A stretch of 64,000 nt of DNA, taken from positions 1 through 64,000 of the forward strand of contig MKVX01000008.1 of the NCBI GenBank assembly GCA_001899255.1. The letters run 5' to 3'. The stretch is from Rhizobiales bacterium 62-47 (GTDB lineage Bacteria > Pseudomonadota > Alphaproteobacteria > Rhizobiales > Xanthobacteraceae). Position numbers and translations under genes: made by a program. Below the pieces are notes generated by a model, which saw nothing but the letters and a program-made list of their open reading frames with translations, was not told the origin of the DNA and made no database searches. Positions 17,061 to 40,529 of the stretch are shown here, in pieces. Position 1 is the stretch's first letter; each line of letters begins with the position of its first letter.

Positions 17061-18494
17061 TCAGTATTCGCGGATGCTCTCGTCCAGTCCGCGTAGCAAC
17101 GGATACAGGAAGTAGGAAATCACCCGCCGGCTTCCGACCTTCAGTTCAGCCGTCACGGCCATGCCGGGCATCAGCTGCATGCGTTCGGGCTGGCGGCGCA
17201 ACTTGCTCTCCGACACGTCGACCAGGACACGATAGTAAGGAGCGGTCGTCTTGCGCACGGCGTCAGACTTGGCATCCGGCGTGAACGCATCGTTGCTCAC
17301 GACTCTGACGGTTCCGGACCCCGTCCCGAACTTCTGGAACGGAAACGCTTCGAACTTGATCCGAACCGGTTGACCGACCTCGATCTGACCGATATCGCGG
17401 CCTTCGACGTTGACCTCCGCCTGGAGCTTGTCGTCGCGCGGCACCAGCACAAATAACGTCTCGGCTTCCCGCGCCACAGAGCCGACCGTTCGATTGCCGA
17501 TCTCAAGCACGATCGCATCGGCCGGCGCCGTCAGCACGATGAGCTTGCGGCGCAGTTCTGCTTTCTTCAGATCTTCCGCCGCTCCATTGCGCTTCGCCAG
17601 TGTTTCGACAAGATCCTGGTAGGCCGTACGACGGAAGTCCTCGAGGAATACCTGCCGATCGGCTGTCGCTTTCTCGACGCGGTGCGCGTAGTCGACCTGA
17701 TTGCCTCTTACCCGCGACAGATTGCTCTCAACATCGAGGCGGGCATCACGGGAAAGCAGGAAATTGAGGCGCGAGCCGACTTCCTTGTCCATCAACGTGC
17801 TGCGCATCGATTCGATCGACTTCATCGTCTCGAGGCGTTGCACCAACACCGTCTCTTCATTTTGGCTGGTCTTCAGATTGGCCTGGGCACTCGCAATCTG
17901 CGCATCGAAATTGCTCAGCTGCGCCTGGTTGAATGTGCGACGTTGGGAAAACAGCTTGCTCTGCAACACCTCATCGGGATTGGCGCTGTCCTTGACCACA
18001 TAGTCGTAGCCGCCCAGTTCAGCGCGAAGCCGCTCGATGGTTGCGTCCAGCGCCGCCACGCGAATCTGGAGCTGATCGAGATCGGCTTGAGAGAACGTCG
18101 GATCGAGGGTGGCGAGCGGATCGCCACGATTGACCACATCGCCAACGCGGACATGAATTTGGCGTACGACCGAAGTTTCGAGCGGCTGCACGACGAGGTT
18201 CGGCCGCGTCGTGATCAATTTGCCCTGCGCGGTGACGATCATGTCCACACGGGAGACAGAGGCCCAAACAATCGCTGCGGCAATCAGCGCCACAACGCAA
18301 TAGAGCGTCATGCGGGCGATCCGCGGCGGCGTTCGCTGCTCGATCTCAAGCGCATCGGACTGGAATTCACTGACAATCGGTTTCAAGGGCGGCGTACTTC
18401 TGACGACCGATCGTTTGCGACGGCTGTTATCGTTTGAGACCGGATGGCCCGTACTCATCACACGCAGCTCCGGCTTGTTGTTTGAATCGGTCAT
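17061..18494 (-). CDS. HlyD-family type I secretion membrane-fusion protein
   Basis: The 477-aa adaptor has a basic cytoplasmic tail, then one transmembrane segment (LYCVVALIAAAIVWASV, about residues 62-78). A lipoyl/barrel half-motif GKLITTRPNLVVQPLETSVV follows, then a long coiled-coil hairpin (about 120-300), a second lipoyl half IVLTAPADAIVLEIGN and the C-terminal MPGMAVTAELKVG typical of HlyD/LapC. It links the inner-membrane ABC exporter to a TolC-like channel, which is not encoded here. ATG 18494 overlaps the exporter stop by four bases. The open frame continues upstream to 18929, but that part is the antisense-frame shadow of the exporter. Confidence 0.92.
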   Translation of the reverse strand: MTDSNNKPELRVMSTGHPVSNDNSRRKRSVVRSTPPLKPIVSEFQSDALEIEQRTPPRIARMTLYCVVALIAAAIVWASVSRVDMIVTAQGKLITTRPNLVVQPLETSVVRQIHVRVGDVVNRGDPLATLDPTFSQADLDQLQIRVAALDATIERLRAELGGYDYVVKDSANPDEVLQSKLFSQRRTFNQAQLSNFDAQIASAQANLKTSQNEETVLVQRLETMKSIESMRSTLMDKEVGSRLNFLLSRDARLDVESNLSRVRGNQVDYAHRVEKATADRQVFLEDFRRTAYQDLVETLAKRNGAAEDLKKAELRRKLIVLTAPADAIVLEIGNRTVGSVAREAETLFVLVPRDDKLQAEVNVEGRDIGQIEVGQPVRIKFEAFPFQKFGTGSGTVRVVSNDAFTPDAKSDAVRKTTAPYYRVLVDVSESKLRRQPERMQLMPGMAVTAELKVGSRRVISYFLYPLLRGLDESIREY

Positions 18495-20722
18495 GCTACG
18501 TGCCTCATCTGCTGGTTCCACAGATGGCGATACATCGAACATTTGGTCAGGAGCCGGTCGTGCCGGTCGATATCGATGACACGGCCACGATCGATCACCA
18601 GTGTCGCATCGGCATCTGCCAGCATCGACAGTCGATGCGAGACGATGATCACCGTCCGCCCCGCCGCGATCCGCCGCAGATTGCGGCGAATGATCATCTC
18701 GCTTTCGGAGTCCAACGCGCTCGTCGCTTCGTCGAGGATCAGAATGCGAGGATTCACGATCAGCGCGCGGGCAATTGCCAGCCGCTGCTTCTGGCCGCCG
18801 GACAGGTTGGAGGCATTTTCCTCCAGCATGGTGTCGAACCCGCGCGGCAGCCGTTCGATGAACTCGTCGGCGCCGGCAAGCTGGGCGGCCTGCACGACTT
18901 CCGCGAAGGTGGCATCCCGCTTGACGCAAGCGATATTCTCGCGAACCGTGCCGCGGAACAGGAAGTTATCCTGCAGCACCAGACCAAGGTTTCTGCGCAG
19001 ATGCGCGAGATCGAGCTCGCGCGCATCGTACCCATCGATACGCAGCAACCCTTGTTGCGCTGGATAGAGACCCGAAATCAACCGCGTGAGCGTCGTCTTG
19101 CCGGATCCGCTTCGTCCAACAATGCCAAACACCTTGCCGGGCTCGATCGCGAACGAGACATCATCCAGCGCCAGTGATCCCTCGGGACCATAGCGGAAGG
19201 ACACGTTCTCGAATTCGATCTTGCCTTCCAGGGCGGGTCGCAAGCCTTCTCGCGTACCGTCCTGCTCCGACTTCTGGTTCATGACTTCTCCCAGCATTTT
19301 TACCGAGAGCGCCACTTCCTGGTACTCATGAACCATCGTGACCATCTGCACCAGCGGGCCGGAGACCCGGCTGGCCAGCATGTTGAAAGCGACCAGCGCG
19401 CCGATCGTCATCTCGCCGCTGAACACGTCCAGGGCGCCGAGCGCAATGATTCCGAGCGTCATCAGTTTTTCAAGCAACCCGGTCACGGACTGGGCGCCGG
19501 CGGATATCTTTTCGACGCCGAAACGCATCGACGTCGACTGCGCGCAACGATCGTCCCACGACCGGCCCTGCAGCGGCTCCATCGCCAAGGACTTGACCGT
19601 CCGCATTCCGTGAACGGTTTCGACGAGCAGCGCCTGACGTGCGGCCTCAGCCTCGTAAAGAGCCAGCAAACGGCGCCGGAACGGCCCCATCAGCATGGCA
19701 ACGATCGCACCGCTCAATGCCGTGAACGCCAACACCACACAGGTCAACTTCACGCTGTACAGCGCAAGAACCGGGATGAAGACAAAGAGCGACACCGTAT
19801 CGAGCATCGTCAGGAAAAGCCGGCCGGTCAAAAATTCCCGGATGCGCGCGGCTTGTTGCATATGCTTCACCAGCACACCGGCCGAGATGTGCTCGAAGAA
19901 CGCGATCGGCAATCCGAGAAGATGGCCGAACGTCTTTGTGGCGACGCGAATGTCGACCTTGTTGGTCGCGTAGAGCATCAGGTAGCGACGCAGGAAACTG
20001 AAGATCGCATCGAACACCAACGCGGCAGTGGCGCCGATGGCGAGCACGTACAACGTCGTAAAGCTCTCGTGGACAAGAACCTTGTCAATTACGAGCTGGA
20101 AAAAAATCGGAAGGATCAGGCCCAGCGCATAGAGCAGGAGCGCCGCCACGGCGACGTCCGCGAACAATCGCCATTCGCGCAACAGTTCTGGCACGAACCA
20201 TCGGAATCCAAACGTTCCATGCGCGCCAAGGAGATTGTGGTTGCGCTTTACGAGGAAGACCTCGCCGTTCCAGTTCGAACAGAACCGCTCTTTATCGATG
20301 ACAATCGGCTCGTTCTGCCGTTCGGCCAGCGGATCGACGAGTTGCACGAGCTGCTCGCCTTCCGGTCCCTCGCCCGTCGCAGTGACGATAACCCAGTTTC
20401 CGTTGTTGAGCTGCGCAACGGCCGGATAGGCTTCGCCGAGATCGGATAACGTCGCCCAATCCATCTTGGCGATGCGGGCGCGCAACCCGACTTCCTTGGC
20501 CATGCGCAACATCAACGCCGGGGGAACCGGCCCGTCGCCCACGGCATAGGTGTGCCTCAATCGGTCCGACGATACGTCGAGGCCATGATGCGATGCGATT
20601 CGCGCGAGGCATTCCAGCGCAGTAGACGTTCCCTCGTTCGGATTATCCGAAGGGACGTTGTCGCCCGTCACCTCAGCGGACGAATCGTTCTGTTCGATTT
20701 CAGCGGAAGTTTGATGAGACAT
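18491..20722 (-). CDS. type I secretion ABC exporter with degenerate C39-like domain (HlyB/LapB type)
   Basis: The protein has 743 residues. Residues about 30-155 resemble the C39 peptidase-like domain. TALECLARIA occupies the catalytic-Cys helix, but the catalytic Cys position aligns with Thr and the His position is lost in NNGNWVIV, so it is a non-cleaving substrate-docking domain as in HlyB. A six-helix membrane domain follows. The ATPase has Walker A GRSGSGKTTL (about 533), signature LSGGQKQR (about 635) and Walker B ILILDEATSALD. It would export the adhesin encoded two genes upstream in one step from the cytoplasm. Start overlaps the 112-aa gene's end by 23 bp. Confidence 0.92.
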   Translation of the reverse strand: MSHQTSAEIEQNDSSAEVTGDNVPSDNPNEGTSTALECLARIASHHGLDVSSDRLRHTYAVGDGPVPPALMLRMAKEVGLRARIAKMDWATLSDLGEAYPAVAQLNNGNWVIVTATGEGPEGEQLVQLVDPLAERQNEPIVIDKERFCSNWNGEVFLVKRNHNLLGAHGTFGFRWFVPELLREWRLFADVAVAALLLYALGLILPIFFQLVIDKVLVHESFTTLYVLAIGATAALVFDAIFSFLRRYLMLYATNKVDIRVATKTFGHLLGLPIAFFEHISAGVLVKHMQQAARIREFLTGRLFLTMLDTVSLFVFIPVLALYSVKLTCVVLAFTALSGAIVAMLMGPFRRRLLALYEAEAARQALLVETVHGMRTVKSLAMEPLQGRSWDDRCAQSTSMRFGVEKISAGAQSVTGLLEKLMTLGIIALGALDVFSGEMTIGALVAFNMLASRVSGPLVQMVTMVHEYQEVALSVKMLGEVMNQKSEQDGTREGLRPALEGKIEFENVSFRYGPEGSLALDDVSFAIEPGKVFGIVGRSGSGKTTLTRLISGLYPAQQGLLRIDGYDARELDLAHLRRNLGLVLQDNFLFRGTVRENIACVKRDATFAEVVQAAQLAGADEFIERLPRGFDTMLEENASNLSGGQKQRLAIARALIVNPRILILDEATSALDSESEMIIRRNLRRIAAGRTVIIVSHRLSMLADADATLVIDRGRVIDIDRHDRLLTKCSMYRHLWNQQMRHVA

Positions 20723-21038
20723 TGGGTGATCGCGGGTTCGAGGGCGAGGACGAGTCTGAACGATCGCTGGCGGGATTGATGTGCGGCGCTTCAGCCGCCA
20801 TTCGCGGCGCGTTGCGCTTTACTACGCCCGCGTCGACCAAACCCTGCAATGCGTTCTGCATCACCTCGACCGAGTTAGCGAAACCCTCGATCGAAAAAAT
20901 CACTCTTTGACGAAATACTTTTTTGGGCGCGTTGTTGGCATCGCGCTCCGTCGGAGAAAGACTAACAAGATCGACCCGGACGATAGAGCCGCCCACGGTG
21001 ATTTCGTCTACGCCGTCCGTATAGATCTCAACGTGCAT
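20700..21038 (-). CDS. small conserved-looking protein of the type I secretion operon
   Basis: The protein has 112 residues. It begins MHVEIYTDGVDEITVGGSIV, then RVDLVSLSPTERD and FRQRVIFSIEGFANSVEVMQ, which read as a compact beta-rich domain with a final helix. It ends in a Ser/Pro/Asn-rich disordered tail. The ATG has a good GAGGA site and lies 9 bp after the adhesin stop. The 3' end overlaps the exporter gene by 23 bp. It has no signal peptide or membrane segment, so it is a cytoplasmic accessory. It faintly resembles small DUF3467-like proteins, but I cannot confirm this. A chaperone or regulatory role in adhesin export is an inference from position. Confidence 0.75.
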   Translation of the reverse strand: MHVEIYTDGVDEITVGGSIVRVDLVSLSPTERDANNAPKKVFRQRVIFSIEGFANSVEVMQNALQGLVDAGVVKRNAPRMAAEAPHINPASDRSDSSSPSNPRSPNVSSNFR

Positions 21039-21047
21039 GGCATCCTC

Positions 21048-23708
21048 CTATGATGTCAACTGTGCTTTGAACAGGACATCGACACCGTAACCGGTCGAGT
21101 TGTAGCTGTTCGTGGGAAACAGACTTGAATTGCCGTAAGCGTAAACACCGTTGCCGCCGCTGCTCGATGTTCCCGGCGCAATCAGCATCCCGCTGGTGTG
21201 ATCGGTCGCAAAGAAATTCGGATCGGCCGAATAATTACCATCGGTATGGTACGAGGCGACATAGGTCGTTCCTGCTGTCACAGCGACAGGGCTTGCGAAA
21301 TCGACCTGCTGCCAGCCGCTGGCTGTTTCATTGGTGAACGTCGCCGTCGCTAGCAGCGTACCCGTCGAGCTCCAGAGATTGGCGACGTGAGTCCCGATGT
21401 TATCCGGCCCCTTGTAGAATTTCAGGCCAGTGATTTCGCCATTCGCAGTGGTCTCGAACTTGAAGCCGAGCTCGACCGAATTGGGATCGTTCACAGACGC
21501 AACAGCCGGCACTGAAGACGAACCGAAGAGCGATTGCGTCGACAGGTCGCCGACTAACAGATTTACTGTGCCGGTGCCGACGCCGCCTCCACCATCCGTA
21601 ACGGAGTAGGTGAAACCCGCAGCTCCCTGATAGCCCGCCGTGGGCACAAACGTGATCTGATGGGTAACCGGGTCGTAAGACACGGTGCCGTTCGTTGCGC
21701 CGCTCACGCCGGCGAGCGATAGCGGCAGATTGTTGGGGCTGCTGTCATTGGCGAGCAGCGTCGCATCTGAAATCGCGATCGTACCGTTTTCGCCCACCAG
21801 CAGGCCGCCATCGTTCTGCACGACCGGAGCCGGCAACAGCTTGCTGTAAACGACGTCCACCCAATAATTGGCATTGTTGAAAGTGCTGGTCGGAAACGCG
21901 CTGCTCGACCCATAGGCATAAACGCTGCCGATGGCCGTCAAGTCGGCATTAGTGAGCGGGCTTGCGAAATAGTTTGCGTCGGCCGAGTAGTTGCCGTCGG
22001 TGTGATATGACGCCGTGTACGTCGATCCGGCCGTAATGAGCACGGGCGTCGAGAAATTGACTTGCTGCCATCCCGAGGCCGTTTCGGTGGTGAATGTCGC
22101 GGTCGCGAGCAACGTTCCCGACGAACTCCAAAGATTTGCGACGTGGGTGCCGATATTGTCCGGCCCCTTGTAGAATCGCAGTCCGCTGATCAGACCATCC
22201 GCAGTTGCCGTGAATTGAACGCCAAGTTCGACGGAGCTCGGATCGTTGGCCGTCACCACGCTCGGGATGCTGCCGGCGCCAAAGAGACTCTCGTCCGCTA
22301 TGGCATAGAGGCTCACATTGGCCGATGCGGTCATGCCGTTCGCATCGGTGATAGAATATTTGAAGCTGCTCATCCCGCTGTAGCCAGCCGTCGGGATAAA
22401 GCTCACGCTCTGCGTCAACGGATCATACGATACCGATCCGTTGGTCGGGTCGCTCACGCCGGTAATCGTAAAGGCGGCTCCACTGACACTCGTGTCATTG
22501 GCAATCAAAGTCGACGTGGAAATCGTGATTGCACCGTGCCTGACAACGAAGCCGATATCGTCCTTCGCCGTGGGCGCCGCCGGGATCGTAACAACCGGGG
22601 GCGTACCGGTAGGCGGCGCGGTGAACGTCTGGGTCGGCGAATTTGAAGTTGACGAAACGTTCGACAAGAACGGCACGAGCCGCGTGGCCAGGGAGGTCCC
22701 GCCTTCATTGTTGGGTTGCACGACTGTCAGCCGGGGTGTGGCCGGCGCAGTAAAGTTCTGCAGATCGCCCTGCTGCGCAGAAAATTTGAGGAACGTCCCT
22801 GCAAGAGGCGGACTGCTTGATCCGATATGGCGCGGGGGCTGCTGAGTTCCATCGATCGAAGACGTGGTTTCGGGCGAAGCCGCATCCTTCTCAGTCAGCT
22901 TCGGCTGCACCGATGGTTCGCTCGTCGTGTTCCTGGACTGATCGTTATCCCGAACTGCCGCAACGTTGGCGTTAAGCTCCTTGTGCGGTGGCATATCGCC
23001 GGATTTGGTCGCCGCTTGGTCGACAGGAGCGGCAGTCGCCGACAAGCCCATTGATGAAAGGGCGGCGCCAACCAGCAAAGCCGTCGCAAGCGGCTCGATC
23101 GCGGAGTCGCCGATCGATGGGGCAGTCAAAGCTGCCGTCGCCACCGCGACATCCGGGCCTACGACAATCAGGATCGATTCGTGCGCGATTTGCTGAGAGG
23201 ACCGGAACGCCCGATAGCGCAATAGCGAGATTTGACCGGCGGCCGCGCGCGCTGGCACAAAGAGCAACGTCGATAGCTGCGATGGGCTAATGACCTGCCC
23301 TGCGGCCAACCGCGTGACGCCATCCGCCAGCACAACCGTGCCATTCGCTGGCAGTTCCGTAATGAGAATGTCGAGATGCCCATCGCCGCGAAGCGACGGC
23401 GGCGCATCGCCAAGCCTGGCGGGACCGGCGTTCTGCGCAACGTACAGTTGCGACCGCTCGACGTGATGAGCCGCGATATCGCCGTCGCTCAGCCATTCAA
23501 GTTCCTGAAGCTCTGAAATAGTCGCGGCGTCGCCGATCCGCAGTTCACGACCGCCACCCCGGCGCCGCACGACACCCGCTAGGGGCAAGGTCGCCACGGT
23601 CACACTCAGTTCGTCCGCGGAATAAGCCGGCGACGTCTCCAGCGATACATTACCTCGAACACCGGGATTTGCGGTGTTGGGCCAGTCGGTTATGGCGTGA
23701 TGCAACAT
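21048..23708 (-). CDS. large secreted adhesin-like protein with cadherin-like and DUF4082 repeats
   Basis: The protein has about 886 residues and no N-terminal signal peptide, as expected of a type I secretion substrate. The N-terminal 200 residues are a distinct domain (SLETSPAYSADELSVTVATL onward). A low-complexity Pro/Thr/Ser linker follows at about 300-380. Next come two tandem units, each a cadherin/Ig-like domain (DANGMTASANVSLY type; YSVTDGGGGVGTGTVNLLVG) and a DUF4082 domain (VELGxxF...GLxFYKGPDNIGTHVANLWSS). ATG 23708 has GGAAG at good spacing; an ATG at 23741 gives 11 more residues without a ribosome site. It is the first gene of the operon and the presumed cargo, probably cell-surface or EPS-bound. 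Confidence 0.85.
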   Translation of the reverse strand: MLHHAITDWPNTANPGVRGNVSLETSPAYSADELSVTVATLPLAGVVRRRGGGRELRIGDAATISELQELEWLSDGDIAAHHVERSQLYVAQNAGPARLGDAPPSLRGDGHLDILITELPANGTVVLADGVTRLAAGQVISPSQLSTLLFVPARAAAGQISLLRYRAFRSSQQIAHESILIVVGPDVAVATAALTAPSIGDSAIEPLATALLVGAALSSMGLSATAAPVDQAATKSGDMPPHKELNANVAAVRDNDQSRNTTSEPSVQPKLTEKDAASPETTSSIDGTQQPPRHIGSSSPPLAGTFLKFSAQQGDLQNFTAPATPRLTVVQPNNEGGTSLATRLVPFLSNVSSTSNSPTQTFTAPPTGTPPVVTIPAAPTAKDDIGFVVRHGAITISTSTLIANDTSVSGAAFTITGVSDPTNGSVSYDPLTQSVSFIPTAGYSGMSSFKYSITDANGMTASANVSLYAIADESLFGAGSIPSVVTANDPSSVELGVQFTATADGLISGLRFYKGPDNIGTHVANLWSSSGTLLATATFTTETASGWQQVNFSTPVLITAGSTYTASYHTDGNYSADANYFASPLTNADLTAIGSVYAYGSSSAFPTSTFNNANYWVDVVYSKLLPAPVVQNDGGLLVGENGTIAISDATLLANDSSPNNLPLSLAGVSGATNGTVSYDPVTHQITFVPTAGYQGAAGFTYSVTDGGGGVGTGTVNLLVGDLSTQSLFGSSSVPAVASVNDPNSVELGFKFETTANGEITGLKFYKGPDNIGTHVANLWSSTGTLLATATFTNETASGWQQVDFASPVAVTAGTTYVASYHTDGNYSADPNFFATDHTSGMLIAPGTSSSGGNGVYAYGNSSLFPTNSYNSTGYGVDVLFKAQLTS

Positions 23709-23741
23709 AAGAGGCTTCCGAAAATCGCCATACGGAGGCAT

Positions 23742-32856: not shown

Positions 32857-32864
32857 ATGAGTGA
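32808..32864 (+). CDS. possible 18-aa upstream reading frame leading into the H-NS-family gene
   Basis: GTG at 32808 (or ATG 32814) lies 5 bp after TTGGGGGAC and opens an 18-codon frame. Its TGA at 32862-32864 overlaps the ATG of the H-NS-family gene (32857). The overlap would allow translational coupling. The peptide has no amino-acid bias that points to attenuation. It could also be chance. Confidence 0.3.
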   Translation: MRMNSQLRRNDAGDRLDE

Positions 32865-33324
32865 TCCCGCAGCCTCAGAAGTAGGCGATGCTTCAGTTCG
32901 AAGTCACCACAACTATCAAGATCGCGAGACCGCGATGCGTAAACCGATCCTGCCAGATTTTGGTTCTCTTCAATTCGATGAGCTCTGGCTCATCCATGAA
33001 GAGCTGACCAAGATTTTGTCGGACCGGATCATCGCGGAAAAACGCGAACTTGAGAGCCGCCTGGCAAAACTGAATCAAGTCGATGTGGCCGGCGTGCTGG
33101 AAACTTCAGCGCCTCATGCAGCCGATGAGCGCGCACCGCGGCGCAAATATCCGAAGGTGCTGCCAAAGTATTTTAATCCACAATTGCCCTCCGAGACCTG
33201 GTCCGGAAGGGGTAAACAGCCGCGCTGGCTGGTGGCAGCTCTCAAGTCAGGGCACAAGCTGAGCGAATTCGAGATTGTTGATCCAGCCCGGCGCAAGACA
33301 GAGAAAGACTACTCGCGCGGTTAA
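32857..33324 (+). CDS. H-NS-family nucleoid-associated protein (copy 1)
   Basis: The protein has 155 residues. An N-terminal coiled-coil oligomerisation region (FDELWLIHEELTKILSDRI ... KRELESRLAKLN) is followed by a linker. The C-terminal H-NS DNA-binding core is YPKVLPKYFNPQLPSETWSG and RGKQPRWLVAALKSG. This core inserts into AT-rich minor grooves and silences transcription. Compared with copy 2 (38330) it has about 26 extra N-terminal residues. ATG 32935 (MRKPILPDFG) would give the normal family length, so the start is uncertain. Its stop overlaps the convergent small gene's stop within TTAA. It may regulate the EPS and peptide loci around it. Confidence 0.88.
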   Translation: MSDPAASEVGDASVRSHHNYQDRETAMRKPILPDFGSLQFDELWLIHEELTKILSDRIIAEKRELESRLAKLNQVDVAGVLETSAPHAADERAPRRKYPKVLPKYFNPQLPSETWSGRGKQPRWLVAALKSGHKLSEFEIVDPARRKTEKDYSRG

Positions 33325-33662: not shown

Positions 33663-34025
33663 ACCGAGCCTCTTGCTGAGCTATCGTCGATCTCCCCCGG
33701 TAGACGCACCCATTGTCGGGTTGGTTCAAACCCGCCCGCAGAAGCCGTTCACGAATTGGAGATTTTTGCGCGAGCGTCCCGTCAACGACAACCGAACCAC
33801 GTAACGTCGATGGCGATGGCGATATGTCGTCTCACTTAAATTCCGGGCGCCTGGAAACAATTCAACCGTCCGACTGCTCAGCAGGTTCCTGCGCACGCGG
33901 GCAAGTTGCTCCACGCAGGCCGCACAAATGCGCCGTGACACGAATACAGGTTTGCTGAGATGAAGAACCAATCGCACGCGCGCGCGAAATACCAACGCCC
34001 TCCGATGTCAAGCAACACACAAGCA
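33663..34025. other. region without a supported gene
   Basis: Several short frames exist on both strands, but none has a convincing ribosome site or protein-like composition. The stretch lies between paralog A and the terminator of the peptide gene. Confidence 0.4.
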
Positions 34026-34052
34026 AACGGCCCGCTTACAAGGCGGGCCGTT
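34026..34052 (-). terminator. terminator downstream of the precursor-like peptide gene
   Basis: AACGGCCCGC pairs perfectly with GCGGGCCGTT around a seven-base loop. Read on the minus strand the stem runs into TTTGCTTG. It lies about 119 bp after the peptide gene's stop, so that transcript carries a long 3' UTR. Confidence 0.65.
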
Positions 34053-34170
34053 CGAAACCTCATCGGCTTGTGCGCAAAATCCCAGCGGTGCCTTCACAAC
34101 ATAAATTGCTTGAAACCCAAACGAGCCGCAGCGAAAGGCAACCGAGAGATTCTTCGAAAATAGCGGAATA

Positions 34171-34425
34171 TCAGAAGAGCTTGTCGAACCAGTTCTCAAG
34201 CCACTTCCAAAAATCCCAATCCCTTGGTCCAGGATTGCCCGGATTGCTTCCGCTACCGCCACCAGAGCCGGCAATCGCATCCGAATTGAGCGACGTCGAT
34301 AACAACACCGTTAACGCCGGAGGCGTTACAACCGCAAACTTGCCACACGCAGCAAGGAACTTGCGGCGGTCGTCATCAATGGGAGAATTGGCATCGTTGC
34401 GCGTATCGTTGATCTGATCGGTCAT
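34171..34425 (-). CDS. precursor-like small protein with twin-arginine leader and aromatic C-terminus
   Basis: The protein has 84 residues in four parts: an acidic/Asn-rich head (MTDQINDTRNDANSPIDD), then DRRKFLAACGKFAVVTPP and ALTVLLSTSLNSDAIA, which look like a Tat-type RRxFL motif with a short hydrophobic stretch broken by PP. A Gly/Ser linker (GSGGGSGSNPGNPGPR) follows, and the last 15 residues DWDFWKWLENWFDKLF-like are very rich in Trp and Phe. Three Trp are spaced along an amphipathic helix. It is divergent from a PqqD-kinase fusion across 138 bp of AT-rich DNA. It may be a modified or exported peptide handled by those enzymes; this is inference from context. Confidence 0.72.
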   Translation of the reverse strand: MTDQINDTRNDANSPIDDDRRKFLAACGKFAVVTPPALTVLLSTSLNSDAIAGSGGGSGSNPGNPGPRDWDFWKWLENWFDKLF

Positions 34426-34563
34426 GTCTATGGACCTTAATATAATTTAATCCAGCAAGCATTTTTCTGCATTTAATTTATGTCTCTTTAATGCAGAATG
34501 TCAAGATTTTCACCATCCGATTTGCACTGATTTAAATAGAGCGCGAAGCACACTTTTCAGTGA
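34426..34563. promoter_or_regulatory. AT-rich divergent promoter region of the peptide locus
   Basis: The region carries AATATAATTTAATCC, CATTTAATTTATG and CTGATTTAAATAG. It is far more AT-rich than flanking coding DNA and is bracketed at a distance by two H-NS-family genes. It must contain promoters for both the peptide (minus) and kinase (plus) genes. Exact -35/-10 boxes are not assigned. Confidence 0.5.
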
Positions 34564-35766
34564 ATGATGACTCATTCCCGTCCTGATATTGAAGGGTTTA
34601 ATAGCAGCATGAGAGCTTTCGACGAGAGCGCCACGGACCAATTCGACGTTAACCAAGTCGCTCATGATCTGCGTTTTCGGCCAGTTTCCAGCGTGTCGTT
34701 CGCTCTGCTGGATGATCGGCCCGTGCTGTTCAGCGAAGCCGCTCAGCAATTATACGAGCTGAACCCGACAGCAGCCTACATCTGGTGCGGCTTGCTCGAA
34801 GAAAAGCCGACGCAAGAGATCCTGGACGGGCTGGAAGAATCTGGAGTTGAGCCGCGAGCGGCGCGATCCTTCGTGCAAGGTGCACTGCGTAACTGGCTCG
34901 AGTTGGGGTTGATCGAGCTAAGCTGGGATTTGGGTGATGCATTTAGCCGCATTATACGTATCGGCCGGTCCAACGTGCTTATTCGTGCCGCCAATCAATC
35001 GCTATTGGATCAACTCACGTCATTGTTCGACCAAACATCATCCCAAGAGGGCGACGTCCAGGACACCTATGAAATTTGCCAGGTTGGTGCCCTCACCTAC
35101 ATGTTGCATAACGAGCGTTGCGTACTGCGCTGCAAGCCCGACGAACTGGTCCCTGCGTTCAAAGCCCACCTTACGGCGCAGATCATTCAAAGAAACTCGC
35201 CGAGTGTCGCATTCCATGCTGCCTGCCTCCTTCATCGAGGGAGGGGCCTGCTCATTAGCGGGCCGCCGGGCGCCGGAAAATCGACCCTGACGATGCACTT
35301 GATGGATGCAGGCCTGCAATATGCGTCGGACGATATCGTTCTGATCGCGCCCAATGGCGAGGCAATGGGTGTGCCGTTTGTGCCGACGTTAAAATCAGGC
35401 TCGTGGCCTATCATCGAGAGGCTACGGCCTGATCTTGCCGGATTTCCAATGCACCGGCGAGCGGATGGCAAACAGGTGCGATATCTCAAGCCGCAACAGC
35501 CTATGTATGCCGGCAAATTTCCATTGAACTGGATCGTCTTTCTCGAGCGAGGCTCCGCAACGGCTGCCAGACTGGAGCCGCTTGGCCAGCTCGAAACCAT
35601 GAAGCTGTGGATCGACGCAACCTATTCGCCCGAGGGGCGTTTGAGTGTCGAAGCTTTTCATTCCATCAAGCGAGCGCTGACCGATGCAAAATCGTTTCGG
35701 CTTCACTATGCCGATGCAGCGAATGCCAAAGATATTCTGATTGGTCTTTGCAATGACCCGTCATAG
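34564..35766 (+). CDS. PqqD-like domain fused to HprK-related kinase
   Basis: The protein has 400 residues. Residues about 35-120 (FRPVSSVSFALLDDRPVLFS, YELNPTAAYIWCGLLEE) match the PqqD fold that binds leader peptides. The C-terminal half is HprK-like: HAACLLHRGRGLLISGPPGA then GKST, a Walker A at about 233-243. It also has the strand YASDDIVLIAPNGEAMGVPF, in which DD is the HPr-kinase metal/catalytic region. HprK-type kinases associated with peptide clusters phosphorylate Ser of a precursor. It is the divergent neighbour of the peptide gene and overlaps the nucleotidyltransferase gene. The fusion of recognition and kinase domains suggests one enzyme that binds and modifies the peptide. Confidence 0.82.
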   Translation: MMTHSRPDIEGFNSSMRAFDESATDQFDVNQVAHDLRFRPVSSVSFALLDDRPVLFSEAAQQLYELNPTAAYIWCGLLEEKPTQEILDGLEESGVEPRAARSFVQGALRNWLELGLIELSWDLGDAFSRIIRIGRSNVLIRAANQSLLDQLTSLFDQTSSQEGDVQDTYEICQVGALTYMLHNERCVLRCKPDELVPAFKAHLTAQIIQRNSPSVAFHAACLLHRGRGLLISGPPGAGKSTLTMHLMDAGLQYASDDIVLIAPNGEAMGVPFVPTLKSGSWPIIERLRPDLAGFPMHRRADGKQVRYLKPQQPMYAGKFPLNWIVFLERGSATAARLEPLGQLETMKLWIDATYSPEGRLSVEAFHSIKRALTDAKSFRLHYADAANAKDILIGLCNDPS

Positions 35767-36826
35767 TCGCGCGCTTATCCCACTCTGCGATTGTCTTAGA
35801 GGCTCCCTCCCCAAAGACCCGGATTGGATGGCGATCCTGGGCCTTGCCAATCAAACGCTCACCACGACGTCTTTGATGCCGTTCGTGGAACAGTTTAGCG
35901 ACTCCATTCCGGCTGACGTAACCCAGTACGTTCGCGAACTGTTTGAACGCAACCTAATGCGGAACAGGCTGCTTGCTGCGCAGTTGGAAGAAGCCATTGG
36001 ATCGCTCAATCAAGTCGGCGTCACCCCCATTCTGTTGAAGGGGGCCGCCATGTTGGCATTGGCCCCTCGGACAAAAAGCGCCACGAAACTGATGGCGGAC
36101 CTCGATATCGCGGTCTCTCCCGATGAAACCCAAACCGCTGCAGATGCGCTTTCGCGCATCGGATATCAACTGCACGCGGAAGCGACGCCCGGTGGGCAGA
36201 AATGGTACACAGATTGGAAGCGGAGCCGTGATGTCGGCATGATCGATTTGCACGGCGGGCTACCGGGTCCGGCATACTTCTATCGCGACATGGGCGACAC
36301 CAGCCGTTATTGCGAATTGGTGACTGTCGGGTCCGGCTCAGCCTACGTCCCAACCGCGGCCTTTCATGTCCTCATCATCACCATTCACGATCAATTCCAG
36401 GATTATGACTATTGGCTCGGAAATATTGATCTGCGCCATCTACTGGATCTGCGCGATCTCATCCAATCGTCGGATGGATTCGATTGGGATCTGTTGCGTT
36501 CGCTGACACCCGATGCCCTTGCCAGAAATGCACTCGAAACGCAGCTGATCTCGCTGTTTTCCTTGCTCGGAGTCGATATTCCGGATGAGCTGCGCGCGCG
36601 CTGGATACCTCGCTTGCAACACCTGCGACGCGTTTATCAGGCCCGGATCCCCATGCTGCGAACAGCCTTCCTTCCACTCGCTGTGTTGGACTACAGCAAC
36701 TATCGCCAAGGCGTCGCCGCCAGCCAGCGACAGGCCGATAGTCACCGCATCGACAAGGCCACTCCTGCAAGGGCTACCTCGCGGTTGGTAACGCTGTCGC
36801 GACGCCAACACTATGGGAAAGTATAA
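35753..36826 (+). CDS. nucleotidyltransferase-fold protein (NTP_transf_5 type)
   Basis: The product has about 357 aa. The core is GVTPILLKGAAMLALAPRTK followed by KLMADLDIAVSPDE. This is the KG...R...ADxDI pattern of the uncharacterised nucleotidyltransferase family found beside HprK-like kinases and lasso-peptide or EPS genes. Later parts are helical (HVLIITIHDQFQDYDYWLGN, DLRHLLDLRDLI). ATG 35753 lies 14 bp inside the kinase gene, so the two are co-translated. The substrate is unknown; transfer of a nucleotide to a peptide or to a small molecule is possible. The C-terminal 40 residues are basic. Confidence 0.78.
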   Translation: MTRHSRALIPLCDCLRGSLPKDPDWMAILGLANQTLTTTSLMPFVEQFSDSIPADVTQYVRELFERNLMRNRLLAAQLEEAIGSLNQVGVTPILLKGAAMLALAPRTKSATKLMADLDIAVSPDETQTAADALSRIGYQLHAEATPGGQKWYTDWKRSRDVGMIDLHGGLPGPAYFYRDMGDTSRYCELVTVGSGSAYVPTAAFHVLIITIHDQFQDYDYWLGNIDLRHLLDLRDLIQSSDGFDWDLLRSLTPDALARNALETQLISLFSLLGVDIPDELRARWIPRLQHLRRVYQARIPMLRTAFLPLAVLDYSNYRQGVAASQRQADSHRIDKATPARATSRLVTLSRRQHYGKV

Positions 36827-36842
36827 GCGCGTAGAATCTTGA

Positions 36843-36860
36843 CGATGCCATTCGGGCATC
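36843..36860 (+). terminator. small hairpin between convergent genes
   Basis: GATGCC pairs with GGCATC around a TTC-containing loop, 17 bp after the nucleotidyltransferase stop and 35 bp before the convergent gene's stop. It has no T-run, so it is weak evidence for a terminator. Confidence 0.3.
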
Positions 36861-36894
36861 GCCCCGTCTCCACTCCGAAACGCGCGACGTATCG

Positions 36895-37263
36895 CTATAT
36901 GTCAGGAAACTGCTGGTTGAACGTCGCACGCAGTGACTTGAGGCGCTCAATGTGCTGCGAGAGTTGCGCCAACCGTCGCTGGCCATTGGAAATTTCGTCG
37001 TTGAACGCATCCTGATGTCGGCTATCTGAAGCATCGCGCGTGAGATACTCATCGCTCTCATTGCCATGCGTGACAGCCGCGCGTGCCAGTACTTCGTCAA
37101 TTCGGCCGTTGAGGCCTGACCATTCTGCCGTCGCGGCAGCCAGCGCCGTCTCGATCGACGTCAACACCGGCTTCAATCGTTCGGCGTCGGTACTTTCATC
37201 GCGGGCGGCCGAGCGAGCCTTGAAACGTTTGCCGCGATGCGCCCCCAACAATGTCTCGAACAT
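36895..37263 (-). CDS. coiled-coil-like hypothetical protein
   Basis: The protein has 122 residues from ATG 37263 (a TTG at 37284 would add seven). It starts MFETLLGAHRGKRFKARSAA, then a helix-rich body (RLKPVLTSIETALAAATAEW, EVLARAAVTHGNESDEYL) and GQRRLAQLSQHIERLKSLRA with heptad-like spacing. No signal peptide or membrane segment. Codon use and composition look genuine. It is convergent with the nucleotidyltransferase gene and on the same strand as paralog B. The function is unknown. Confidence 0.65.
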   Translation of the reverse strand: MFETLLGAHRGKRFKARSAARDESTDAERLKPVLTSIETALAAATAEWSGLNGRIDEVLARAAVTHGNESDEYLTRDASDSRHQDAFNDEISNGQRRLAQLSQHIERLKSLRATFNQQFPDI

Positions 37264-37472
37264 TCCCAATGGTCCAATCCGCAAAGGCTACGTCGTGACT
37301 GACGGAGGCTGATAAGACCGAGGCGGCGCGTTGACGATATCGTCGTCCTGGGACACCTCGAACCAGCGAATCATAACGACCGACTCAGCCGTCCTCATAT
37401 CGTACTTCCACGGAAGCTGCTCAAGAAAGCCTGACGATAGCAATCACCATCGGCTCAAAATCAACCCGGATG

Positions 37473-37727
37473 CTACCGCAAGCGCCTCAGTTGCCGGCGA
37501 CGGCGGGTCCCAAACGGGATGCCATTCTGATGTGCTGACGACGGCCTGCGGACCCGATCGCGAACGATCGCGAGGTCCCTCAGTAACTTACGACACAAGG
37601 CAATTTGCTGAACCAAAGCGGCTGGGGAGGAAGGATGACTGGACAGGGACACGATCTTTGCATTCGCGGTGCGAATGCGCGCGAGAGAATTGGCCACATG
37701 CCCCCTTTTTGCGGCGCGCGTATCCAT
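37473..37727 (-). CDS. small helical hypothetical protein, paralog B
   Basis: The protein has 84 residues from ATG 37727, which has an excellent TTGGAGGTCGCG ribosome site. The helix SSPAALVQQIALCRKLLRDL then AIVRDRVRR resembles that of the 33321 product (TPAILATQISLWGVLLVEVG). It ends in a very basic tail (GTRRRRQLRRLR), which could bind nucleic acid. It lies between the coiled-coil protein and the second H-NS-family gene. The function is unknown. Confidence 0.62.
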   Translation of the reverse strand: MDTRAAKRGHVANSLARIRTANAKIVSLSSHPSSPAALVQQIALCRKLLRDLAIVRDRVRRPSSAHQNGIPFGTRRRRQLRRLR

Positions 37728-37739
37728 CGCGACCTCCAA

Positions 37740-38329
37740 TCAAATTAAAAATAATTCCTTGGTCAGAAATAAAACGGATCGCAGTTTATTCGACCTCCGA
37801 AAATTTAACAACGCATCCATCCGAACGCCTTGATATACCGCAAAAAGCCGGCATCACATTCATCCAACTGGATAAAATCACTTTGCCCCGCGCGCTGTGC
37901 GAAGAGGTGGCAAATGCCAGCTCATCTCACGAATCATCGTCCCGCACCAATAGCTCAATTTCTTAAATGACTTGATCCTGCCTCTTGAGAGAAAGGACAC
38001 GACAGGAGATCGACATCGTCTTGATCAATTTCTCGATATCAGACCATGACTTGAAGCGGCGAGTCCGAGACTCGCAAATTCAAACAATCAGCACTGCTCA
38101 CGGACTGATGAGCAATCGACGCTGATGATTCATATCTCAAGGCATCCATTTCAACGCGTCGTATCAAAATACTGATGGCAAACGTGAAATGCCGCCTGAC
38201 GGGCAGCGAACATCACTGCCTCAGACGGCATCGCCTGAACTGGTTTGGAAAATAAGCATACAGAAACATAGACCGCGACGGGCGAACATCATCGCGGGAA
38301 ACTATCCACGTTACGCAAAAACGTTCAGA
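37740..38329. other. 590 bp without a supported gene
   Basis: The area is AT-richer than coding DNA. An open plus-strand frame through 37966 has a protein-like tail (GITFIQLDKITLPRALCEEV) but no ribosome site or plausible upstream part, so it may be a gene remnant. No terminator or repeat stands out. Confidence 0.4.
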
Positions 38330-38698
38330 TCAGCCGCGACGGCCTTTCGCGCGGGGGGTTTCGACAATCTTGAAATCGTCGATCTTGCGACCCGACTTGA
38401 TAGCTGCAGCCAGCCAACGCGGCTGCTTGCCCCTGCCCGACCACGTTTCGGTTGGAATCTTGGGATTTCGATACTTGGGAAGAACGCGGGGATATTTACG
38501 ACGAGTCTTGCCGACCTCGCCACGCAGCCTCAAATCGGTGCCGTCGCCCTGGACGTTTAAACCGCGCGTCAACACAGCCAGCCGTTTTTCGAGTTCGAGC
38601 TTTTCAGCTGCAATTCGCACTGAGAGCAATTTGCTGAGCTCTTCGTGAAGCGACCACAGTTCATCCATGGCCATGGCTTCGAGATCAATTTTGCCCAT
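38330..38698 (-). CDS. H-NS-family nucleoid-associated protein (copy 2)
   Basis: The protein has 122 residues, the normal size for alphaproteobacterial H-NS relatives. N-terminal oligomerisation helix: AMDELWSLHEELSKLLSVRI. C-terminal DNA-binding core: YPRVLPKYRNPKIPTETWSG and RGKQPRWLAAAIKSGRK. It is clearly related to copy 1 at 32857 (same YPxVLPKYxNPxxPxETWSG core). The ATG at 38698 is preceded by GAGGAGGGTAG. About 450 bp of non-coding DNA lies upstream, beginning with an AT island. It probably acts as a silencer of AT-rich acquired DNA nearby. Confidence 0.9.
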   Translation of the reverse strand: MGKIDLEAMAMDELWSLHEELSKLLSVRIAAEKLELEKRLAVLTRGLNVQGDGTDLRLRGEVGKTRRKYPRVLPKYRNPKIPTETWSGRGKQPRWLAAAIKSGRKIDDFKIVETPRAKGRRG

Positions 38699-39143
38699 CT
38701 ACCCTCCTCGCCCCACGATTCGAATTATTCGGGCAGCTATTAAATAATAATCCCCGACCTATTGAATCGCAACCCTGCGCAACTATTTCCACCGCTGTTC
38801 AAATCGCGTGCAAAATTCAAAATGATGCTGAAAACAGCTCATTTAATCGCGCGCTCTTTCAACTTTTTTCAGCCGCACGGCGGCCACATTGACTGCGGAA
38901 CAGCGGCCTAATCGTTGTCCTATCTAGCTACTTGGCTTCGAGTGCCGCGCCCGTAGCATTTCCGCTCGATCACACGGAAACACACCCGATCTTGGACGCA
39001 GTGACAGCGCGAGCTTAGATTGGTCGAATCACGACACACCACGGAGTGCAAATTCGCACCGCAGCACGCTTGATTCTGCCATCTTTTTGGCGCGACTTTA
39101 ATGGGGAAGTGATTCTAGTCAGGCAAGTTGCTTGGGGGACATC
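38699..39143. other. intergenic region upstream of H-NS copy 2
   Basis: The part next to the H-NS gene (38730-38850) is AT-rich (TATTAAATAATAATCC) and likely carries its promoter. No gene is supported. A TTGGGGGAC element lies at 39132-39140, just before the plus-strand miniprotein. Confidence 0.45.
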
Positions 39144-39257
39144 ATGGAAATGCTGGGGGCAATCGGCTACAGCGCGATGCTGGCTTGGACACCGTCGCTT
39201 TTGTTACTGGCCTACCTGCTGATCGATCTTCCTGAAGTGTCAGAGAACATTCGCTAA
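39144..39257 (+). CDS. 37-aa single-TM miniprotein
   Basis: ATG 39144 follows GGGGGA (39134-39139) at optimal spacing. The peptide MEMLGAIGYSAMLAWTPSLL then LLAYLLIDLPEVSENIR has one hydrophobic helix followed by an acidic/polar C-terminus. The last 18 bp overlap the 3' end of a convergent miniprotein gene. The ribosome site makes it credible despite its size. The function is unknown. Confidence 0.55.
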   Translation: MEMLGAIGYSAMLAWTPSLLLLAYLLIDLPEVSENIR

Positions 39258-39359
39258 TCGCTGCACGCCCCAGACGATGAGTGTCAGCCACGCAACGGTC
39301 GAGAGCGTGGAGAGGGTGAGAAACGTCGCGATAAACAACTTGTCTTTCATCTTGTTCAT
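39240..39359 (-). CDS. 39-aa single-TM miniprotein, convergent with the previous one
   Basis: ATG 39359 has CAGGGTCAGCA upstream. The peptide starts MNKMKDKLFIATFLTLSTLS and continues TVAWLTLIVWGVQRLANVL: a basic n-region and one long hydrophobic segment. Orientation would be N-in by the positive-inside rule. It converges with and overlaps the 37-aa gene by 18 bp. The function is unknown; a membrane-active or regulatory miniprotein is possible. Confidence 0.55.
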   Translation of the reverse strand: MNKMKDKLFIATFLTLSTLSTVAWLTLIVWGVQRLANVL

Positions 39360-39719
39360 TGCTGACCCTGACGAAACGTCCCGCCGATTAGTATTTCAAC
39401 CGGCAAAAAAGGTTCATAGCCAACTTCTGTTGCGTACGGTTTTCTCGGCCTGGCGCGATGACGTCGAATCCTCCCTCGCCTCCCTCGAGAACCCGCTGAC
39501 AAACCGCATGTCATAAACCCGGCCCAAGCCAACGCGTTGCACATCCCCTTCGAGAATTTGGATGCTCGCCTCGCGGGAATTAAATCCAGAGATCACCTTC
39601 CGATAGTGACGGATCGCGAGCTCGCGCCGCTGCGATCTCGCGGCTTAAAAAAGAAGATAGGGAAGACGTCTGTCGACCGGCTCCCGTGGACATCACCGAA
39701 CACTGGACACGGGAAATAA
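39360..39719. other. 360 bp without a supported gene, adjacent to tRNA-Lys
   Basis: Only short frames without ribosome sites are seen. No integrase remnant or duplicated tRNA end is visible. Confidence 0.4.
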
Positions 39720-39795
<76 letters not shown>

Positions 39796-39965
39796 GGAAC
39801 CATCCGGCAATACCTTGCGGGGTGGGCGTCGTTTAGCAAAGCGAACCCCCGATGTCCAGCAAGGTTGTCCGGATTTCCCTGCGAAAATCGGTGGAGATTC
39901 AACGAAAGAACCGCCTTGCGACAAGGCGGCCTTCCGCTGCGGCTGATGAGGCGACCGTTTGGCCC

Positions 39966-40529
39966 TCAAAGCTTCCCGGAGCCCTCGTCACGGTCCTGGT
40001 CGGGACCGCCACGACGACCCATGCGGTCGGCCCCGTCATCGCCATGGTGCCGATGTTGCTGCCAGCCTTCACCACCAAATCGGCCGTCCATCCGGGTGAG
40101 GAATGCCAGCCGTCGCTTTTGCCCCTCGTCCAGCGTCTTGTAGAGCGGATCCGCGGCATCCGCGATCTTCTTCAAAGCGGCTGCAGTGGCCGCCATGTTG
40201 TCCGCGCGGTCACGCAGACGCGTCACCGGGTCGGCCCTCTGTGCCTGCGAGTCCTGGTCCTCGCGGGCCTTCATCCTGGCATTGGCGCGATCGATCCGCA
40301 GCTTGGCAAACTCCCGGACTGCAGTCTCGACGGGCGGCCAAAGCTTGTCCTGATCCGGCGTCAGCTTCAGCCCCGCCTTGACGGCGGCAATCCGGGCGTC
40401 CGTGAACGCCGCCCGATCTTCCGGATTCATGCGGGTATGATGATGGTCCCAGGATCGATGCTTGGCATAGACCGTGGTGCTGCCGGCGATTGCCAGGGCG
40501 GCAACACCGGCGAGGATGGCTTTGTTCAT
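39966..40529 (-). CDS. Spy/CpxP-family (LTxxQ) periplasmic protein
   Basis: The protein has 187 residues. Signal peptide MNKAILAGVAALAIAGSTTV-YA. The helical body has one LTPDQ motif (GLKLTPDQDKLWPPVETAV) and a second helical half around DEGQKRRLAFLTRM, as in Spy/CpxP proteins. It is His- and Arg-rich near both ends (HHHTR, HRHHGDD), suggesting metal contact. Such proteins act as periplasmic chaperones or stress sensors. It has a GAGGTTGCG ribosome site and lies alone on the minus strand. Confidence 0.82.
   Translation of the reverse strand: MNKAILAGVAALAIAGSTTVYAKHRSWDHHHTRMNPEDRAAFTDARIAAVKAGLKLTPDQDKLWPPVETAVREFAKLRIDRANARMKAREDQDSQAQRADPVTRLRDRADNMAATAAALKKIADAADPLYKTLDEGQKRRLAFLTRMDGRFGGEGWQQHRHHGDDGADRMGRRGGPDQDRDEGSGKL

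Follow-up and report, generated by a model that had tools for sequence, protein, structure and literature searches.

A kinase that appears to carry its own peptide-binding domain raises the question of which peptide it binds and what becomes of that peptide once it has been modified. Here, we address this question for a three-gene cassette at positions 34,171 to 36,826 of a 64,000-nucleotide stretch of DNA (positions 1 to 64,000 of contig MKVX01000008.1 of Rhizobiales bacterium 62-47, Alphaproteobacteria), hereafter the window. An initial annotation of this stretch described an 84-amino-acid small protein encoded divergently from a kinase with a PqqD-like front domain, with the kinase gene overlapping a nucleotidyltransferase (NTase) gene, and proposed that the small protein is the substrate of both enzymes. 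All three open reading frames (ORFs) are indeed present in this arrangement, and the overlap persists, at 14 bases, with the NTase start moved to ATG 35753 (357 amino acids), which fits the aligned relatives best, rather than TTG 35741. We consider it rather likely that the cassette is a peptide-modification system, in which the recognition element (RRE) typical of ribosomally synthesized and post-translationally modified peptides (RiPPs) binds the leader of the small protein, the kinase phosphorylates a Ser or Thr, the NTase extends the modification, and the product leaves through twin-arginine translocation (Tat).

Co-occurrence of the small protein and the kinase

The annotation had made its proposal dependent on the small gene being conserved beside the kinase in relatives, and such conservation is evident. 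Among 248 genomes of the same GTDB family (small protein, profile A2, E≤1e-3; kinase, E≤1e-10), the small protein was found in 20 and the kinase in 25, with 19 genomes encoding both (Fisher p=2.7e-22). Thus, 19 of the 20 small-protein genomes possess the kinase and, by coordinates, 17 of these 19 kinases have a small gene within about 2 kb, the nearest small gene in the other two genomes (G047 and G183) being about 50 and 62 kb away. The 19 kinases with E<1e-16 are all found in small-protein genomes, one of which (G133) gave a weak small-protein match (E=8e-4). Only G259 has a small protein but no kinase match, and this genome is 77% complete and in 680 contigs. The six kinase-only genomes comprise a broken copy (G257) and five distant kinases (G045, G234, G242, G247, and G249), next to which twin-arginine small ORFs are found when larger stretches are viewed. 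The broken copy (L187, on contig C22 of G257) is a decayed cassette, with an RRE fragment containing a stop, the NTase in pieces and no small-protein match. Given that each of the 25 kinase genomes has one kinase match and that small-protein matches number up to six per genome (G141), the small proteins very probably are the substrate family of the kinase. Closer to home, among the window genome and 40 relatives, the small protein occurs in the window genome only and in none of the seven genomes of the same genus.

The association extends beyond the family. In a sample of 385 genomes of the class (small protein, profile A7; kinase, profile A3, E≤1e-20), the small protein was detected in 16 and the kinase in 34. 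Ten of these genomes encode a kinase with E<1e-40 whose match covers the RRE and runs on into the kinase domain (for G632, on two contigs), and nine of the ten have a small-protein match (weak in G496, E=2e-5); in the tenth, G576, a truncated twin-arginine peptide lies next to the kinase where the contig ends (E=5e-4). When 12 of the 29 plasmid records matching the kinase were fetched, the small protein was present in 11, clearly in 10 and weakly in one (L014, E=3e-4), and in L015 none was found. A contig scan with the small protein, which was the basis of selection and so offers no test of co-occurrence, returned, in the best 79 of 155 relatives, Alphaproteobacteria by title, except for two loci of one unclassified bacterium. 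The cassette was found in Sinorhizobium meliloti, Mesorhizobium, and Bradyrhizobium, and its recurrence as a trio across Alphaproteobacteria makes it more than a chance neighbourhood.

The genes stay together even though their order and strand vary. Among 72 loci that encode both proteins (with 66 distinct small proteins; most loci were chosen by the small protein), the small gene lies downstream on the same strand in 35, upstream and divergent, as in the window, in 24, upstream on the same strand in 12, and otherwise in 1. Neighbour clustering of 60 kinase loci plus the window, with a 100-amino-acid limit below which most of the small proteins fall, showed the kinase under 22 genus-level labels, the NTase under 20 and the next neighbour group, a sugar transferase, under 6 (labels assigned by hand; metagenome-assembled genome labels and the window counted).

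Conserved leaders, variable cores and the two enzymes

The small protein matches no Pfam or NCBIfam family at E≤1. Its relatives share a 36-residue leader, RRxFL...PP...AxA-x-S, followed by a hypervariable core. We compared 121 unique members, ungapped and counted from the first R, leaving out two without the RR anchor. RR is present in all 121, the anchor admitting only RR or RK, and conservation is nearly complete at F4 (116), G9 (120), P16 (116), P17 (120), L23 (119), A31 (118), A33 (114), S35 (116), and G36 (105), whereas beyond about position 38 no conserved residue was found in these 121 proteins. The core types include NNGxGNGGGDGSPNGKxDxxR and GNGWGDKNHIHxGPPGQ, along with His-, Gly-, Lys/Arg-, Thr-, and Pro-rich tails; a search of plasmids with a core motif alone gave no match. 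The amphipathic tail of the window protein, W70-F84, has a moment of 0.59, reached in 26 of 5000 shuffles, and similar tails occur in Bradyrhizobium, Rhodopseudomonas, and Tardiphaga members.

The contrast between leader and core is sharpest within genomes. Over 40 pairs of paralogues, mean identity is 0.89 in the leader versus 0.34 in the core (0.23 with shuffled cores). In the leaders of such paralogues, 651 synonymous codon differences stand against 149 nonsynonymous ones, and two leaders of S. meliloti 4H41 (L048 and L042) differ by 22 synonymous and 0 nonsynonymous changes in 35 codons. Thus, judging by codon differences, the leaders are translated and old, and purifying selection on them is strong, as would be the case if a single enzyme had to recognize all of them. 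The window genome itself has a second, orphan small gene on another contig (L002), whose product is 71% identical over residues 6-63 and has a core of its own.

A conserved leader joined to a variable core is the pattern of a RiPP precursor, and the other mark of a RiPP-type system, an RRE-type recognition domain, is recognizable from sequence in the kinase. The annotation had assigned the kinase a PqqD-like front domain of its own, and this holds: PF05402 matches residues 54-117 with 27.2 bits, above the gathering score of 23.4. When PDB sequences were searched with a profile built from 30 kinases (A3), its front domain matched TfuB1 (6jx3, E=9e-9) and TbiB1 (5v1u, E=6e-7), which are lasso-peptide B1 proteins, and its kinase domain matched the HprK entries 3tqf, 1ko7, and 1jb1. 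The kinase probably carries its own peptide-grabbing domain. Its best HprK-type model is TIGR04352 (66 bits; curated cut-off 200), and H218, G236, G238, K239, T241, D256, K277, and R299 are invariant in 35 aligned kinases. The NTase matches PF14907 (NTP_transf_5) with 92.4 bits, and its K96-G97 and D116-x-D118 are invariant in alignments of 19 and of 26 NTases. Given the roles of these residues in their families, both enzymes look active. An apparent extra domain fused to the Amaricoccus kinase (L073) was judged, from its sequence, to be an open frame in GC-rich DNA and was set aside.

The proposal that the small protein is the substrate of a peptide-modification system is thus supported by its conservation beside the kinase, by the TfuB1 and TbiB1 matches and by its precursor-type leader and core; the two enzymes would act on it. 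The leader/core pattern points to an undescribed family of modified, probably exported peptides.

Candidate acceptor, proposed export and genomic neighbourhood

We infer the following course of events. The RRE front domain of the kinase would bind the conserved leader, and the HprK-type domain would phosphorylate a Ser or Thr of the precursor, most likely Ser54, just past the AxA. That the NTase acts on the small protein at all is a further step that we infer; it would add a second group to the phosphate, which might be a nucleotide or, as pseudomycoidin is reported to have, a sugar. The leader would double as a Tat signal, so that the modified precursor is exported and the general signal peptidase then cleaves it behind AIA. 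One kinase/NTase pair would serve several precursors scattered over the genome, with a common leader and different cores.

Ser54 is favoured as the phospho-acceptor because of its conservation: its position (35 from the first R) holds Ser in 116 of 121 members and Ser or Thr in 118, the highest hydroxyl conservation counted, with T15 (117), S26 (116), S29 (114), T20 (113), and T25 (112) close behind. Kinase-locus members have Ser there in 70 of 73 cases, and orphans in 46 of 48. In one genus, three genomes (L191-L193) have 10 small ORFs in all, of which 7 stop right at the matching Ser, two end three residues past it, and one lacks it; one of the ten, ending in Arg, was left out of profile A8. 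These ends recall the lasso kinases that act on a C-terminal Ser.

The annotation had noted the lack of a maturation protease or dedicated exporter and suggested a minimal modification system. In the immediate surroundings, where ORFs were scanned in part, neither was found, but 14 kb upstream lies a type I ABC exporter with a C39-peptidase-like domain (18491-20722; PF03412, PF00664, and PF00005). It is highly improbable that this exporter processes and exports the peptide in the manner of a bacteriocin: its domain matches would suit such a role, but it adjoins its own HlyD-type and cadherin/DUF4082 proteins, it is not among the recurring cassette neighbours (28 largest groups), and, judged by eye, a double-glycine leader is not evident. 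For the missing protease and exporter, a leader that combines a Tat-type signal and a signal-peptidase site is at least as good an explanation as a minimal system, since Tat-type export and the general signal peptidase would account for both. RRxFL(K), an uncharged hydrophobic run and AxA together give the look of Tat signals. Downstream of RR, each of the 121 leaders contains a stretch of 13 or more uncharged residues (median 19, mean hydropathy 1.19), and TatC is present in the genome. Tat export of the small protein is, on these features, a good guess.

Several observations weigh against this reading, in one or another of its parts. In the class sample, a small protein is found without a kinase, at the threshold used, in 6 of 16 genomes; in three (G377, which is 100% complete, G385, and G557) the small-protein match has E<1e-6, and in the other three (G438, G520, and G534) weak matches lie inside long ORFs. 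In 32 of 92 long loci, small genes are orphans, away from any kinase. Conversely, of the 35 class kinase genes (36 rows, one gene being split over two contigs), 28 have a twin-arginine small protein no more than about 1.5 kb away, a count that is a lead rather than a controlled one, many cases having been judged by eye and profiles A8 and A9 having been built partly from the counted proteins; seven genes have none (in G047, G342, G490, G459, G561, and G291, and the first gene of G496). Over 40 loci, leader distance tracks the RRE, the kinase and the NTase alike (r 0.69, 0.69, and 0.70, respectively), with partial correlations of at most 0.23; no domain is thereby singled out, and covariation specific to the RRE, which we looked for, was not found. 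Tat models match weakly, TIGR01409 in 2 of 26 members (best E=0.21) and PF10518 in 1 of 26. Precursors that end at the Ser speak against a simple secreted core, given that a cut after AxA would release almost nothing, and a fourth genome of the same genus (G249, L194) has a different small ORF, ending in GDGSFE.

The last points bear on an alternative in which the small protein is modified but its leader is no Tat signal, being instead an RRE recognition helix or a membrane anchor, so that the full-length protein receives the modification at its Ser and the product remains in the cell or membrane. Apart from the poor model scores and the copies left without a secreted core, leader conservation far exceeds what RR and hydrophobicity require. 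However, the resemblance to Tat signals and the presence of TatC count against this alternative, as does the fact that the small proteins of the HPr-rel-A type, discussed below, likewise have RR and AxA, and we regard it as unlikely, if worth keeping in mind.

As to the orphans, no strong companion emerged: small proteins aside, their best recurring neighbour is a response regulator, in 6 of 49 loci (L031, L034, L046, L096, L102, and L124).

The window cassette adjoins genes of the WcaJ, Wzz, and Poly_export types, and the annotation had considered a coupling to exopolysaccharide (EPS). Within the fetched stretches, any of seven EPS marker queries was found in 20 of 60 kinase loci versus 1 of 32 orphan loci (p=0.0006, with loci that are not independent), and rmlC and rmlD occur in 9 of the 60, of the Bradyrhizobium type. 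The 20 loci come mostly from related Mesorhizobium and, with the window and Leisingera (by annotation), span about 8 genera; the other 40 have none of the seven markers. The coupling is thus partial. A sugar on the phosphate, as in pseudomycoidin, would fit such a neighbourhood, which is suggestive only. It is improbable, in our view, that a polysaccharide or lipid-linked sugar from the neighbouring pathway is the substrate of the two enzymes, with the small protein as a regulator or surface partner: a leader-binding kinase and precursors with a conserved leader need no sugar substrate, and hypervariable tails would hardly be expected of a regulator.

Table 1. Positions of the cassette genes, their parts and the upstream secretion genes in the window
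Feature	Position	Strand	Remarks
Small precursor-like protein, 84 amino acids	34171..34425	-	Leader residues 1-53, conserved Ser54, variable core
Twin arginine R20-R21 of the leader	34363..34368	-	RRKFL = residues 20-24
A50-I-A52 (signal-peptidase-like AxA), G53, S54 (candidate phospho-acceptor)	34264..34278	-	
C-terminal amphipathic segment W70-F84 of the small protein	34174..34218	-	
RRE(PqqD)-HprK-type kinase fusion, 400 amino acids	34564..35766	+	
PqqD/RRE domain of the kinase, about residues 36-120	34669..34923	+	PF05402; TfuB1 6jx3 and TbiB1 5v1u profile matches
HprK-type kinase domain, residues 196-392	35149..35739	+	TIGR04352; 35-sequence alignment
NTP_transf_5 nucleotidyltransferase, 357 amino acids	35753..36826	+	PF14907
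Type I secretion set: HlyD-type protein, ABC exporter with C39-like domain, cadherin/DUF4082 repeat protein	17061-23741	-	

The cassette lies in a stretch of lower GC content (34000-40000; GC 0.53-0.56) that ends near a tRNA-Lys gene (39720-39795). Given these features and the absence of the small protein from the seven genomes of the same genus, the stretch may have been gained horizontally. Two H-NS-type proteins (PF00816) are encoded on either side of the cassette, at 32857-33324 (+) and 38330-38698 (-), and H-NS-type genes likewise occur in some Tardiphaga/Bradyrhizobiaceae kinase loci.

A possible wider class and comparison with known systems

The known kinase family closest in design is HPr-rel-A, which has the same combination of a PqqD-type domain and an HprK-type kinase, an NTase-profile match alongside and a twin-arginine small protein upstream. 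The window kinase does not belong to it by score: it reaches 66 bits, and three relatives of the window type 73.6, 67.1, and 75.4, versus the TIGR04352 cut-off of 200, whereas three control loci (L161-L163) score 291, 292, and 331. The controls also pass TIGR04353 (55-60 bits; cut-off 35), the model for the separate PqqD chaperone, which has no match in the window kinase at E≤1, PqqD there being fused to the kinase. In the verified HPr-rel-A loci, PqqD is a separate protein, and leaders and small proteins are unlike the window type. A twin-arginine small protein lies upstream in all three controls and, by eye, in five similar loci (L164-L168) not verified with the models; for two more of similar arrangement (L160 and L170), it was found in larger stretches (L199 and L200). 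In an alignment of eight HPr-rel-A-type small proteins, gaps ignored, the second residue after AxA is Ser in five and Thr in three.

A third leader type occurs beside further kinases (L171-L175, L177-L179, and L195), where the Ser position is not fixed. Profile A8 matches 38 of 385 genomes, and 8 of the 14 loci fetched for the third leader type have no kinase match, so that this leader is not kinase-specific; profile A9 matches 14 of 289 genomes, 7 at E<1e-10, and 6 of these 7 are members of the profile itself. The eight loci without a kinase match (L209, L210, L212, L215, L218, and L220-L222; stretches of 8.6-12 kb) encode twin-arginine small proteins with a related leader and Cys-containing cores, sometimes in tandem, and another modifying enzyme may serve them. 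In G342 (L182, 5430-6488, minus strand), three adjacent twin-arginine small genes with Cys-rich cores have no kinase match within 12 kb, a kinase of this genome being on another contig.

Tentatively, and with more doubt than confidence, one might view RRE-bearing HprK-family kinases as the makers of a broad class of Tat-exported phosphopeptides in Alphaproteobacteria, with the window cassette, HPr-rel-A and two more clades as branches that would share a Ser/Thr modification after AxA, extended by the NTase to a phospho-sugar or nucleotide. If the clade with precursors ending at Ser belongs here, it might make a modified amino acid or dipeptide, assembled on a peptide that serves as carrier. 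More immediately, widespread kinase and NTase genes, named in databases without a known target, gain a candidate substrate family with testable residues, and tests are feasible in tractable strains, given that the cassette occurs in well-studied symbionts.

Within a literature search that reached little subscription content, and for which absence is therefore unproven, no paper found names HPr-rel-A or an HprK-related kinase or describes either the window cassette system or the HPr-rel-A system. Nor did the papers found contain the combination of a kinase-fused RRE, signal-peptide-like leaders and one enzyme pair for many dispersed precursors.

Parts of the design are, however, familiar from lasso peptides. 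According to PMC8498205, HprK homologues phosphorylate precursor peptides, the lasso kinases acting on a C-terminal Ser, and in pseudomycoidin an NTase puts hexoses on the phosphate. Paeninodin and pseudomycoidin thus resemble the cassette in that an HprK homologue modifies the precursor and the B1 protein is an RRE (PMC8498205). They differ in that the cassette has the RRE fused to the kinase and a Tat-like leader, and in that just 7 of the 121 cassette small proteins have a C-terminal Ser. A lasso cluster is ruled out in the window genome, given that Transglut_core3 (PF13471, the B2 peptidase type) has 0 matches in the whole genome and that the three matches of Asn_synthase (PF00733, the cyclase type) lie on contigs C18 and C7, with none on the cassette contig C8.

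A second parallel is offered by the bufferins and other RiPPs modified by MNIO enzymes (PMC12452194, in which Tat as a whole word occurs 0 times). In these systems, according to that paper, the signal peptide of the precursor is possibly part of the recognition sequence, just as the leader of the window protein would be, but the signal is of the Sec rather than the Tat type, and an oxidative enzyme takes the place of the kinase and the NTase.

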